A DNA stretch of 38,134 nucleotides from Opitutia bacterium (GTDB lineage Bacteria > Verrucomicrobiota > Verrucomicrobiia > Opitutales > UBA953): NCBI GenBank assembly GCA_947373115.1, contig CANBWJ010000001.1, positions 1-38,134 of the forward strand, in the 5' to 3' direction. This document shows positions 9,675-17,074 of this stretch, piece by piece; the stretch's first letter is position 1; each line of letters starts with the position of its first letter. The notes below the pieces were generated by a model that did no database searches, was not told the DNA's origin, and worked only from the letters and a program-made list of their open reading frames with translations. Made by a program: the position numbers and the translations under genes.

Positions 9675-9702
9675 TCTCTCGGGCGGATTCGTTAAAAGTT
9701 AA

Positions 9703-9798
9703 GGGGCTAGGCTGACCACGGCACACGGGGAACCAGACTGCCGTTGCTTCCTTCCGGACCTGGCGGGGTTCGTCGGCACCCATTGCATGGGGCCTAGC
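9703..9798 (-). ncRNA. ffs: Signal recognition particle RNA (small bacterial 4.5S type)
   Basis: The reverse strand of the lpd-valS gap carries the conserved SRP domain IV core AGGTCCGGAAGGAAGCA, including the GGAA tetraloop and the asymmetric-loop bases that bind Ffh. The 5' arm (GCTAGGC, 9798-9792) pairs with the 3' arm (GCCTAGC, 9712-9706) to close a ~96-nucleotide hairpin, the size of the Alu-less 4.5S RNA. The product assembles with Ffh to target nascent membrane proteins. Exact ends are estimated from the terminal pairing. It lies antisense to both flanking protein genes, so it needs its own promoter within the valS leader region. I do not see a convincing one. Confidence 0.93.
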
Positions 9799-9868
9799 TT
9801 ACCTTTAAGAGTGGCCAATTCATTAGCGCTTTTCAACCTCCATCTTACCCCCTACACCTTTCCTTCCG

Positions 9869-13526: not shown

Positions 13527-14447
13527 ATGCGTATTCTCATCACCGGCGGGGCTGGGTTTATCGGCTCTCACATCGCAGAATCCTTTCAAGGCAAAGCCGA
13601 GGTGGTGATTCTCGATGACTTTCGTAGTGGTGATCGGAAGAATTTAGTAGGTCTTAACTATCAACTCATCGAGGGGTCCATTCTCGATGAGGCCAAACTT
13701 CGTGAAGCCATGCAGGGCGTGGATCAGGTTTTCCATTTGGCCGCCATGATTTCGGTCATGGAATCCGTACTTAAACCCCAGGAGTGCGATGCCTTAAATA
13801 CTCAAGGTACTTTAAAAGTCCTCGAAGCTGCGACTAAGGCTAAAGTCTCAAAGGTCGTCCTCGCTTCGTCCGCTGCTATTTACGGCAATAACCCAACCGT
13901 CCCCAAGGTTGAGTCGATGCCGCCCGAGCCCCAATCCCCTTACGCCAGCACTAAGCTCGACGGCGAACACTTGCTCGAACGCTTCCGGACCGAACACGGA
14001 CTCGCCACGACCAGCCTGCGCTTCTTCAATGTCTTCGGTCCGCGTCAAAACCCACAATCAGCCTACGCCGCTGCCGTCCCCATCTTCATCGCTCAAGCCA
14101 TCAAAGGCGAAGACATTAATATTTACGGTGACGGTGAGCAAACGCGGGACTTCATCTACGTCGGTGACATTGTCAGTGCCCTCACCTTTGCCGCAGCCAA
14201 CTCGGCCATGCATGGCACTTATAACGTGGGCTATGGACAGAAAATTTCGATTAACGACCTCGCCCGACTGATTATTAAGTTAACTCACTCAAACTCACGT
14301 ATCGTCTACCACCCTGCCCGACTCGGCGACGTTAAACACTCACTGGCCAGCAATGCCAAATTAGTGAAAGCCGGCTGGAAGCCGCTCTTCACCTTCGATG
14401 GTGGCATGGCGAAGACGGTCGATTATTTCGCCAAGCTTAAGGCGTAA
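13527..14447 (+). CDS. NAD-dependent nucleotide-sugar epimerase/dehydratase
   Basis: This is an extended short-chain dehydrogenase/reductase acting on an NDP-sugar. The NAD-binding motif GGAGFIGSH is at residues 7-15. HLAAMISV, the SSAAIYG strand, the catalytic YASTK and the substrate-loop segment FFNVFGPRQNP all fit the UDP-glucose/UDP-N-acetylglucosamine 4-epimerase branch (GalE/WbpP-like). The length of 306 is normal for that branch. The partner nucleotidyltransferase-like gene sits immediately upstream, so the two may supply an activated sugar for envelope polysaccharide. The exact substrate cannot be read from sequence. The 3' end overlaps the convergent His-rich protein gene by 11 bases. 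Confidence 0.88.
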   Translation: MRILITGGAGFIGSHIAESFQGKAEVVILDDFRSGDRKNLVGLNYQLIEGSILDEAKLREAMQGVDQVFHLAAMISVMESVLKPQECDALNTQGTLKVLEAATKAKVSKVVLASSAAIYGNNPTVPKVESMPPEPQSPYASTKLDGEHLLERFRTEHGLATTSLRFFNVFGPRQNPQSAYAAAVPIFIAQAIKGEDINIYGDGEQTRDFIYVGDIVSALTFAAANSAMHGTYNVGYGQKISINDLARLIIKLTHSNSRIVYHPARLGDVKHSLASNAKLVKAGWKPLFTFDGGMAKTVDYFAKLKA

Positions 14448-15300
14448 CTTCAATCGGCAGGTAAAGGTAATCATCCTGACCGTCATTAATGTTGAGCCAG
14501 AAATCATAGCGTCCTGCCTTCGGTAAACGAACTTTGAAGCTTAACGTCGGACGAACCTCATACTCGCCGCCCTCGAGCGATGGATGCATGTGCGCATATC
14601 CCGTAAGGTTTTTTGACTCCGCAAATAACACTGCGTGCCCGAGCGCACCCATGATGGGTTGAAGTTTTAAACCCGACCCCACGAGACGATCGAGTTGCAC
14701 CTTAATCAATGCCGACTCACCCGCCTTATGCGTGCTGACCGATGATGCAATGATCTGATTACGACGTGGATGAGGCCAGGCGCTCGTCACTTGAGTCGGC
14801 AAGGCTGCGGTTGCCTCCGCCAACATCACGCGCCCCGAACGTACGGGCACAAAATCGACATAGGCTTGCAGGTCTCCGCCTGGGTTACCGAGTAAAAATT
14901 CCGGTGGGAAAATAAAACTCCAAGTGCCATCGTCTGCCGGCACAGGATGCAGGTGAACATAATCACTCCGCCCACTCACTTGCCTGATGTGCAAATGCAG
15001 TTTTTGAGTATGTGATACCGCTAATTCGTAATTCAAGTAAGGCTGACCGTCTTCCTTAACTAAACGAACCGTGCCGCCGCTGGCCTTGATCGACAGTTGC
15101 AGCTTAACCGGAAACTGCAACGCATTGGGCTGATAGAAATTCGCCTCTTCATTCAGTCCGCAAAACTCCACGCCGTTACTGTAGACCGGTTGATGGTCCG
15201 CGTGTAGAAAGGCACAATGTGTATCGGGCAACGACCGTAAGCCTACAAACAAGAGCAGAGCGCCCACACTCAAACCGATGATATAGCTTCTGATTGTCAT
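14437..15300 (-). CDS. Envelope protein with paired HxHP motifs, putative metal binding
   Basis: I do not recognise a named family with certainty. The 287-residue protein has an N-terminal hydrophobic segment (residues 4-21, signal anchor or signal peptide) and two beta-rich lobes. Lobe 1 contains LHLH (101-104) and VHLHP (115-119). Lobe 2 contains GHAV (221-224) and AHMHP (236-240). Each lobe continues into a strand-rich stretch ending in YVDF or FWLN, suggesting an internal duplication. Two cysteines (C29, C47) lie near the N-terminus. The histidine clusters suggest metal binding, possibly copper, because the start codon overlaps the stop of the SCO1/SenC gene (ATGA), a sign of translational coupling. 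The 3' end overlaps the convergent epimerase gene by 11 bases. Function is inferred from context only. Confidence 0.8.
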   Translation of the reverse strand: MTIRSYIIGLSVGALLLFVGLRSLPDTHCAFLHADHQPVYSNGVEFCGLNEEANFYQPNALQFPVKLQLSIKASGGTVRLVKEDGQPYLNYELAVSHTQKLHLHIRQVSGRSDYVHLHPVPADDGTWSFIFPPEFLLGNPGGDLQAYVDFVPVRSGRVMLAEATAALPTQVTSAWPHPRRNQIIASSVSTHKAGESALIKVQLDRLVGSGLKLQPIMGALGHAVLFAESKNLTGYAHMHPSLEGGEYEVRPTLSFKVRLPKAGRYDFWLNINDGQDDYLYLPIEVTP

Positions 15301-16151
15301 TGCTTGAGCTTTGTTTCGGTCAATTGCACGAGGGTTGCGATGACATCGCTGGGATCGAAGATTGAGCCCTCTCGACGCTGCACAATGCGGCCTTCGGGAC
15401 TCACAATAATCGTCGCCGAATTATGGACAATCGTCCCATCAGCTTCAGTAGTTAAAATTCCATAATGACGCATCAAATCTTTTACCTGATTTTTATCGCC
15501 GGTTAAAAAACGATGCCTCTGTCCGTCGATTTGATAACTGTCGGCATACATCCGCAACACCCCAGGAGTGTCGTAAGTGGGATCAAAGCTAATGGTAACC
15601 AGCCTAACGTTAGCTAGCTGGGCATTCGCCGCTAACGCGTCGCCCAGTTTCTTCATGGTCTTTGTGGCAGCGGGGCACATCTTCGGATTGCCACATCGGG
15701 TGAAAATAAAATTTACCACCAACGGAGCACCGAGAAAATCTTTCTTAAGATAAAATTTTCCGTCCTGCCCCCAAAGCGCCATGGCAGGCATTAATTCATT
15801 CGCCCCTCGGGTCACCACGCGCCCGCGCTCAAAGGTATCACGCTTCAAGGCCTCGGTAATCTCAGTGGCTTGCCGCAATTCTTCGGGATCGGCCGACATG
15901 ATTTTTTCGGCGCGCAGTTTCCCGTCCGACTCCACCAAACTACAACTGATGCGACGGCCTTGCCAGCCGATTGCCCCATCGCCCACTGACAAGGCAACCT
16001 GCTTTACTTCTGCACCGTTAAGTGCAGTCGTAAATTGCGCCGTCAGTTGGGCCTGATCTAACTTCAAGAAATACCCTTCCAAGCGCGAGGTCTGTTCGGC
16101 TGCACACAGAATGTGCGCTAAACTGAAGCCAATTAATAATAAGGAGCGCAT
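15297..16151 (-). CDS. SCO1/SenC-family copper/redox protein
   Basis: SCO proteins are membrane- or periplasm-located thioredoxin-fold proteins that deliver copper to the CuA site of cytochrome c oxidase or act as thiol reductases. Residues 1-18 form a signal sequence. A ~110-residue N-terminal region (20-135) of unclear fold precedes the SCO domain. That domain has the strand VVNFIFTRC, cysteines C153 and C159 spaced as CX5C (the classical form is CX3C), SFDPTYDTPGVLRMYA, and H243 in IVHNSATIIV at the position of the third copper ligand. I chose the ATG at 16151 because it starts at the signal peptide and overlaps the ppx/gppA stop as TAATG. A longer open frame reaching 16346 runs through ppx/gppA and is not credible. 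It is coupled to the downstream HxHP protein. Confidence 0.88.
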   Translation of the reverse strand: MRSLLLIGFSLAHILCAAEQTSRLEGYFLKLDQAQLTAQFTTALNGAEVKQVALSVGDGAIGWQGRRISCSLVESDGKLRAEKIMSADPEELRQATEITEALKRDTFERGRVVTRGANELMPAMALWGQDGKFYLKKDFLGAPLVVNFIFTRCGNPKMCPAATKTMKKLGDALAANAQLANVRLVTISFDPTYDTPGVLRMYADSYQIDGQRHRFLTGDKNQVKDLMRHYGILTTEADGTIVHNSATIIVSPEGRIVQRREGSIFDPSDVIATLVQLTETKLKQ

Positions 16152-17074
16152 TAAATGAGGCCCCCGGTGTCGCGCATGAGAACCTGCACCATACCGTGTC
16201 GCACCCCTCGATGCGTCAGATAGAAAGACTCCGCCTGACTCAAGTCGGCTAAGACACAAACGGTCAGCAATGCTGCCGGCATAATGTCCACGCGATCTCC
16301 GGGGATGCCTGGAATGCTTCGCCGTTGCTCGGGGGTGAGCTGACAAAGTTTATCTTTCAATTCACGGATTCGTAAAACCGGCAACCGCCCGCCCACTGGC
16401 TTCTCTCCAATGGCTTCCAAGTAAAGGGCAATGACGGCGAAGGCGCCACCCGCACCGACGATAATTGCATTTTCGGACGCATGGGCAGGCACAAAAGCTG
16501 CCAGCGCATTGTGCACTTCACGTTGAAAATACTCCTGCTGGCCTTGGCCAATGATGCTCCCCGCCCCTTGCAATAAACTATGCGTGAGTCGGACCGAGCC
16601 CAAGGGGAAGCTTTTCGCCAAGGTGCAACGCTGCCCGCGTAGTTCAATGACTTCCAGGCTGCCACCACCTAAATCAAACGCCACAATGCGCGGGTAGGCG
16701 GCCAGAGCTGGATCAGAACGAATGCCCTCCGAGGCTAAACGTGCCTCCACTTCGCCCGAAACCGTCAGCAAGGGTAGCCCAGTTGCTTTCAGTAATGCGT
16801 CCGAAAATTCACCACGGTTGGTGCATTCCCGTAACGCACTGGTGCCTAATAAAATAATCTTATCTGCACCTTTCTCGCGCGCAAACGTTACGAGGCGAAC
16901 CACTGCCTCCGTTGCTAAAAGGATTTTTTCGGGCGCAAGCGTGACCGCACTTTCTGTTTCAGGAAAAATGCGGATTGATTCCGTCATCCGGCCTAACTCC
17001 AACTGCGTTATGGCATCAACGACCGAGACCTTAAAGGAGTTCGAACCCAAATCAACAACAGCAATAATTTTCAT
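16151..17074 (-). CDS. Ppx/GppA-family exopolyphosphatase or pppGpp phosphatase
   Basis: This is an ASKHA-fold phosphatase that hydrolyses polyphosphate or pppGpp. VDLGSNSFKV (residues 7-16) is the phosphate-1 motif, LLGTSALREC follows, GEVEARLASEGI is the conserved helix carrying the catalytic glutamate, and AFDLGGGSLEV is the phosphate-2 motif. The 307-residue length matches the two-domain short form without the C-terminal HD-like domain. Sequence alone does not separate Ppx from GppA. It starts 3 bases after the LpxR-like gene and its stop overlaps the SCO start by one base, so it is embedded in a four-gene operon. Confidence 0.9.
   Translation of the reverse strand: MKIIAVVDLGSNSFKVSVVDAITQLELGRMTESIRIFPETESAVTLAPEKILLATEAVVRLVTFAREKGADKIILLGTSALRECTNRGEFSDALLKATGLPLLTVSGEVEARLASEGIRSDPALAAYPRIVAFDLGGGSLEVIELRGQRCTLAKSFPLGSVRLTHSLLQGAGSIIGQGQQEYFQREVHNALAAFVPAHASENAIIVGAGGAFAVIALYLEAIGEKPVGGRLPVLRIRELKDKLCQLTPEQRRSIPGIPGDRVDIMPAALLTVCVLADLSQAESFYLTHRGVRHGMVQVLMRDTGGLI

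Follow-up and report, generated by a model that had tools for sequence, protein, structure and literature searches.

CtaK and Sco act together on CuA of the caa3 oxidase in Bacillus, where PCuAC is absent (PMC9145763, PMC13344008). CtaK of Bacillus subtilis (YtkA; PF13115) is a membrane-tethered, extracytoplasmic protein with conserved His and Met residues that performs this function together with Sco (PMC9145763, PMC13344008). For caa3 oxidases, a review table places Caa3_CtaG on the CuB side, and the same review describes the oxidase assembly machineries as diverse and incompletely known (PMC9145763). Here we describe a gene pair found in a 38,134-nucleotide stretch of DNA (the window), in which an SCO gene is followed by a gene for a protein with an HxHP motif in each of two lobes (the HxHP partner). 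The role that we propose for this protein is like that of PCuAC (PF04314), a periplasmic copper donor that serves CuA together with Sco.

The HxHP partner resembles CtaK in its membrane tether and its conserved His and Met residues, and two remote relatives scored above the PF13115 cut-off over short stretches; PF13115 gave no match in the window protein, and the matches obtained for 34 members at E up to 10 did not include it. In contrast to CtaK, the HxHP partner has two domains and a transmembrane anchor instead of a lipid anchor. Its ligand pattern (H/M-x4-H...HxHP) and the fixed position of its gene beside SCO also set it apart. The window protein matched neither PF04314 (PCuAC) nor PF04442 (Cox11/CtaG). 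An open-access literature search found no paper on an HxHP copper protein or an SCO/HxHP pair, which is weak evidence of novelty.

The SCO gene and its two-lobed partner

The window belongs to a draft genome of 1.47 Mb (82% complete) whose close relatives are recorded as Opitutae. An earlier note on this DNA had described an SCO gene overlapping by ATGA a downstream gene, whose product was said to carry VHLHP in lobe 1 and AHMHP in lobe 2 and to have arisen by internal duplication. Both ORFs were found on the minus strand where they had been placed (Table 1), and the overlap is real, as seen at the junction, which reads CAAGCAATGACAATC. The two motifs are present at residues 115-119 (VHLHP) and 236-240 (AHMHP). 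The duplication was borne out as well, since comparing their profiles showed one lobe to be a homologue of the other (hhalign probability 93%, E 3e-7).

On the upstream side, the SCO start lies inside the stop codon of a GppA/Ppx-like gene, such that the two genes overlap by one base (TAATG). Because this arrangement is followed by the ATGA overlap, the three genes likely constitute one operon in the window genome. The GppA/Ppx-like gene is of the exopolyphosphatase type, yet it sits in a putative copper operon and is translationally coupled to SCO. We also observed that the 3′ end of the HxHP partner gene is overlapped by 11 bases by the epimerase-like gene (window 14437-14447).

Table 1. Features of the window and of the HxHP partner. 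Nucleotide positions refer to the window; residue numbers refer to the HxHP partner.
Feature	Position	Strand	Basis or remark
SCO1/SenC-family gene, 284 aa	16151-15297	minus	Pfam PF02630 (SCO1-SenC), E 7e-21
Two-lobed HxHP partner gene, 287 aa	15300-14437	minus	directly downstream of SCO
ATGA start/stop overlap, SCO to HxHP partner gene	15297..15300	minus	junction read in sequence
GppA/Ppx-like gene	16151..17074	minus	directly upstream of SCO; family from reading the sequence, no profile search
Epimerase-like gene	13527-14447	plus	ORF; convergent to HxHP partner gene
Small bacterial SRP RNA	9702-9799	minus	72.6 bits
Predicted metal site, lobe 1: H97, H102, H116, H118 (ends at HxHP)	14947..15012	minus	conservation; metal presumed
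Predicted metal site, lobe 2: M217, H222, H237, H239 (ends at HxHP)	14584..14652	minus	conservation; metal presumed
Segments of the HxHP partner	TM anchor 3-23; C/H segment C29, H33, C47; lobe 1 ~62-172; lobe 2 ~178-287

The upstream gene belongs to the SCO1/SenC family, as its product has an SCO domain with two Cys residues in a CX5CP motif (CGNPKMCP) and a later His (H243); C153, C159 and H243 were invariant in 46 sequences. The textbook form of the SCO motif is CX3CP. We considered CX5CP as a special mark of the pair and rejected this idea because partner-less SCO proteins carry CX5CP too. The N-terminal region of the window SCO occupies the position of the CusF domain in other SCO proteins of the order, without the Met motif. 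That motif (MPAMTMxF) is intact in most partner SCO proteins of one family and has been lost in the window's genus and in several other families. The possibility that an intact CusF motif in SCO is a mutually exclusive substitute for the HxHP partner was also rejected, since 19 of 26 partner SCO proteins from a second draw of loci have the Met motif.

Profile searches with the HxHP partner found no Pfam and no NCBIfam family above cut-off. In the window protein the repeated cluster exceeds HxHP: lobe 1 reads H-x4-H-x13-HxHP and lobe 2 reads M-x4-H-x14-HxHP. The first and second ligands are spaced by five residues in both lobes of all 46 sequences. These clusters form the two predicted metal sites, with the site geometry, and copper as the metal, being presumed. 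Both sites were kept in 73 distinct sequences with a sole exception at H97. Residues H33, C47, H102, H116, H118, P119, M217, H222, H237, H239 and P240 were among those invariant in the 46 HxHP partners of the first alignment, with H97 and C29 each found in 45 of them. In a second set of 29 sequences, which shares two genomes with the first, all ligand positions of both lobes were kept in 29/29 and H33 and C47 in 28/29, with C29 being variable. Shuffling the composition of the HxHP partner produced one HxHP in 3.7% of cases and two in 0.06%. As the pair of motifs is rare in shuffles and both motifs were kept in every aligned homologue, we conclude that they are not due to chance. Thus, the earlier reading of the protein stood when HxHP conservation was checked in orthologues.

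The AlphaFold2 model of the HxHP partner (mean pLDDT 89) consists of a transmembrane helix (residues 3-23) and two beta sandwiches. In each lobe of the model, the second ligand is placed on one strand, and the first HxHP histidine follows on the strand after it. PDB sequences were searched with a profile of the whole protein and also with lobe 1, and neither search found a match. When the whole model was used for a fold search, the hits were only generic Ig/FnIII sandwiches, for which lobe 2 was responsible. Because lobe 2 dominated this search, lobe 1 was modelled alone (pLDDT 94.5). Its nearest solved folds were mostly FetP/P19, which is known for iron uptake, and CrdA, with Z values of 8.0-9.2 over 90-99 residues that are only modestly above the usual background. 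For P19/FetP, the alignment had a Z of 9.2 over 96 residues, with an rmsd of 2.7 and 6% identity. P19/FetP/FtrA and CrdA, which gave the best alignments of the lobe 1 model, are periplasmic, and several have been solved with copper or silver, but they share only 3-11% identity with lobe 1 over the aligned part. CrdA has been described as lacking His and Cys (PMC9182242).

Distribution of the pair and its association with the caa3 oxidase

The HxHP partner was present in 35 of the 37 genomes of the window's genus. Within this genus the Ppx and epimerase genes around the pair are conserved and the pair sits away from cox. Because the Ppx-SCO-partner order is inherited within the genus, the genus counts are not independent, and the counts from other families are those that matter. 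In those families, which belong to the same order, the SCO/HxHP pair remains together in differing surroundings. A first set of genomes from these families contained the HxHP partner in 10 of 20 cases; overall, it was found in 41 of 57 genomes elsewhere in the order, and nearly all carriers, within the genus and beyond it, have SCO directly upstream. Each of the 46 fetched loci that extend into the upstream gene (L002-L047, including two from a single genome) has SCO immediately before the HxHP partner gene and in the same orientation; SCO was adjacent in 26 of 29 loci from a second draw from the phylum. The association described in the earlier note is therefore a conserved gene pair. Three Verrucomicrobiota members from outside the order are longer ORFs (427-475 aa) that cover the two lobes only, and no SCO was recognised by eye beside them.

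Outside the genus, COX2 (the CuA subunit) was present in 41/41 carriers of the HxHP partner as compared to 4/16 non-carriers (Fisher 3e-9, uncorrected for shared ancestry), and the four COX2 ORFs of non-carriers were all short (245-273 aa). In 24 of the 41 carriers, the HxHP partner gene and COX2 are 2.7-6.1 kb apart, and homologues of CtaA (heme A synthase) and CtaB (heme O synthase) adjoin the pair at four sampled loci (L035, L037, L038 and L043). A fusion of COX2 with cytochrome c is encoded both in L035 and in the window genome, the latter having a COX2-COX1-COX3-Caa3_CtaG cluster on another contig; the COX2 of the window genome retains the CuA motif CAEFCGDSHAYM. In the first set outside the genus, Caa3_CtaG exceeded the cut-off in 10/10 carriers and 0/10 non-carriers, a comparison that ignores kinship. 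Genomes without COX2 (G046 and G055) keep a closely related SCO and have no HxHP partner, indicating that the partner is tied to the CuA oxidase and not to SCO as such. Three carriers within the genus (G005, 87% complete; G018, 93%; G007, 64%) had no detected COX2 and no detected Caa3_CtaG, which reflects either an assembly gap or a role beyond caa3. The loci of two of these genomes (L045 for G005 and L005 for G018) both contain the SCO pair.

Profile searches, which diverged helper proteins could escape, found Cox11 (PF04442) in 0/57 genomes and PCuAC (PF04314) in 0/57, and the controls expected to carry each protein were positive. YtkA/CtaK was found in one of the 57 genomes, a non-carrier, and was absent from every carrier searched.

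Relatives in copper-efflux islands

A tblastn search of plasmids identified 162 records with relatives of the HxHP partner (E down to 4e-9). From tblastn and alignment, the HxHP partner belongs to a two-lobed superfamily whose lobe 1 carries H-x4-H...HxHP and whose lobe 2 carries x4-H...HxHP; its hosts include Actinomycetota, Bacillota, Bacteroidota and haloarchaea. A heavy-metal P1B ATPase is encoded close to the relative in seven inspected regions; a copZ-like gene is present in five of these, and five have a metal-sensing regulator, at least four of these regulators being csoR-like. No P1B ATPase, copZ or csoR-type neighbour was seen in two further inspected regions. Plasmid relatives beside copZ-like, P1B ATPase and csoR-like genes were found in Rhodococcus, Arthrobacter, Micrococcus, Mycolicibacterium and Staphylococcus, and the Hymenobacter relative carries an HMBD domain.

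These copper-island proteins have the same two-lobe layout as the HxHP partner but differ in their neighbours, which are copZ, ATPase and csoR genes instead of SCO and cox, and in having Leu for M217. The four lobe 1 histidines together with H222, H237 and H239 were kept in all seven aligned relatives, and Leu occupies the M217 position in 7/7. Two of the three Verrucomicrobiota members from outside the order have Met at this position.

Proposed copper delivery to CuA and alternative readings

What the data presented above show directly is the gene pair, the conservation of its ligands, the lobe duplication, a predicted anchor, linkage to and co-occurrence with caa3, and the lack of detectable Cox11 and PCuAC, together with that of YtkA/CtaK in every carrier searched. 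Because the HxHP partner travels with SCO and one type of oxidase in an order without the usual helpers, it probably hands copper to that oxidase. Our favored explanation, which we consider probable, is that the HxHP partner is a membrane-anchored periplasmic copper-binding partner of SCO, with which it is translationally coupled, and loads CuA of COX2 in the caa3-type oxidase. According to this model, two tandem Ig-like domains, each with one predicted His/Met metal site, would take up copper in the periplasm and hold it at these sites. The protein would then hand copper to SCO, via its CX5C motif and His, or straight to apo-COX2, thereby filling the place of CtaK in Bacillus or PCuAC in Proteobacteria. 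We infer the transfer, its direction and the phenotype, with CuA rather than CuB as the presumed target.

The absence of Cox11 from all 57 genomes would also fit a chaperone that supplies copper to CuB, or to heme-copper oxidases generally (caa3 and cbb3), and that stands in for Cox11 and not for CtaK or PCuAC; in a few carriers of the genus (G005 and G018) the sole COX1 seems to be a short, cbb3-like one. We consider such a chaperone unlikely, since the CuB-side factor Caa3_CtaG (PMC9145763) accompanies the HxHP partner in every carrier of the first set outside the genus, and the COX2-less genomes have SCO without the partner.

The earlier note had proposed a periplasmic copper-binding partner for either cytochrome oxidase assembly or copper storage. 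The conserved pair, the conservation of HxHP and the co-occurrence with the CuA oxidase favor assembly, and the efflux neighbourhoods of the relatives favor copper; storage became less likely, because no more than two sites are predicted and the gene follows a single oxidase. Thus, a periplasmic buffer, detoxification or storage protein that is merely co-transcribed with SCO seems quite improbable. Such a protein would be in keeping with the copZ-like, P1B ATPase and csoR-like genes that adjoin the plasmid relatives, but the branch in this order follows SCO and the CuA oxidase. We view it as highly improbable that the HxHP partner carries no copper and serves SCO or the caa3 complex as a structural or redox accessory, its His sites binding zinc or nothing. 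Although the conserved C47 and H33 could have a redox or assembly role, eight His/Met positions are conserved over the two lobes, and seven of them are common to the relatives in copper operons.

Returning to the proposed copper delivery to CuA by the HxHP partner, we tentatively suggest that it may represent a third, independent way of metallating CuA. An HxHP domain that was duplicated and that is kin to the copper-efflux-island proteins may have acquired or kept the lobe 2 Met and become a dedicated, SCO-paired copper donor for caa3 in the Opitutae, with the CusF-like domain of the partner SCO having decayed in several families. The SCO/HxHP pair is a concrete candidate for CuA copper delivery in a whole bacterial order, and bears on how CuA may be supplied in bacteria without PCuAC or CtaK.

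The pair also offers an initial clue to the function of a copper-linked superfamily that has no name and ranges from plasmids of staphylococci to haloarchaea. A short, unnamed HxHP relative occurs in about 90 staphylococcal plasmid records. In the record that we inspected (L080, 4887-5543), the gene is downstream of copZ, a copper ATPase gene and a gene for a metal-sensing repressor.
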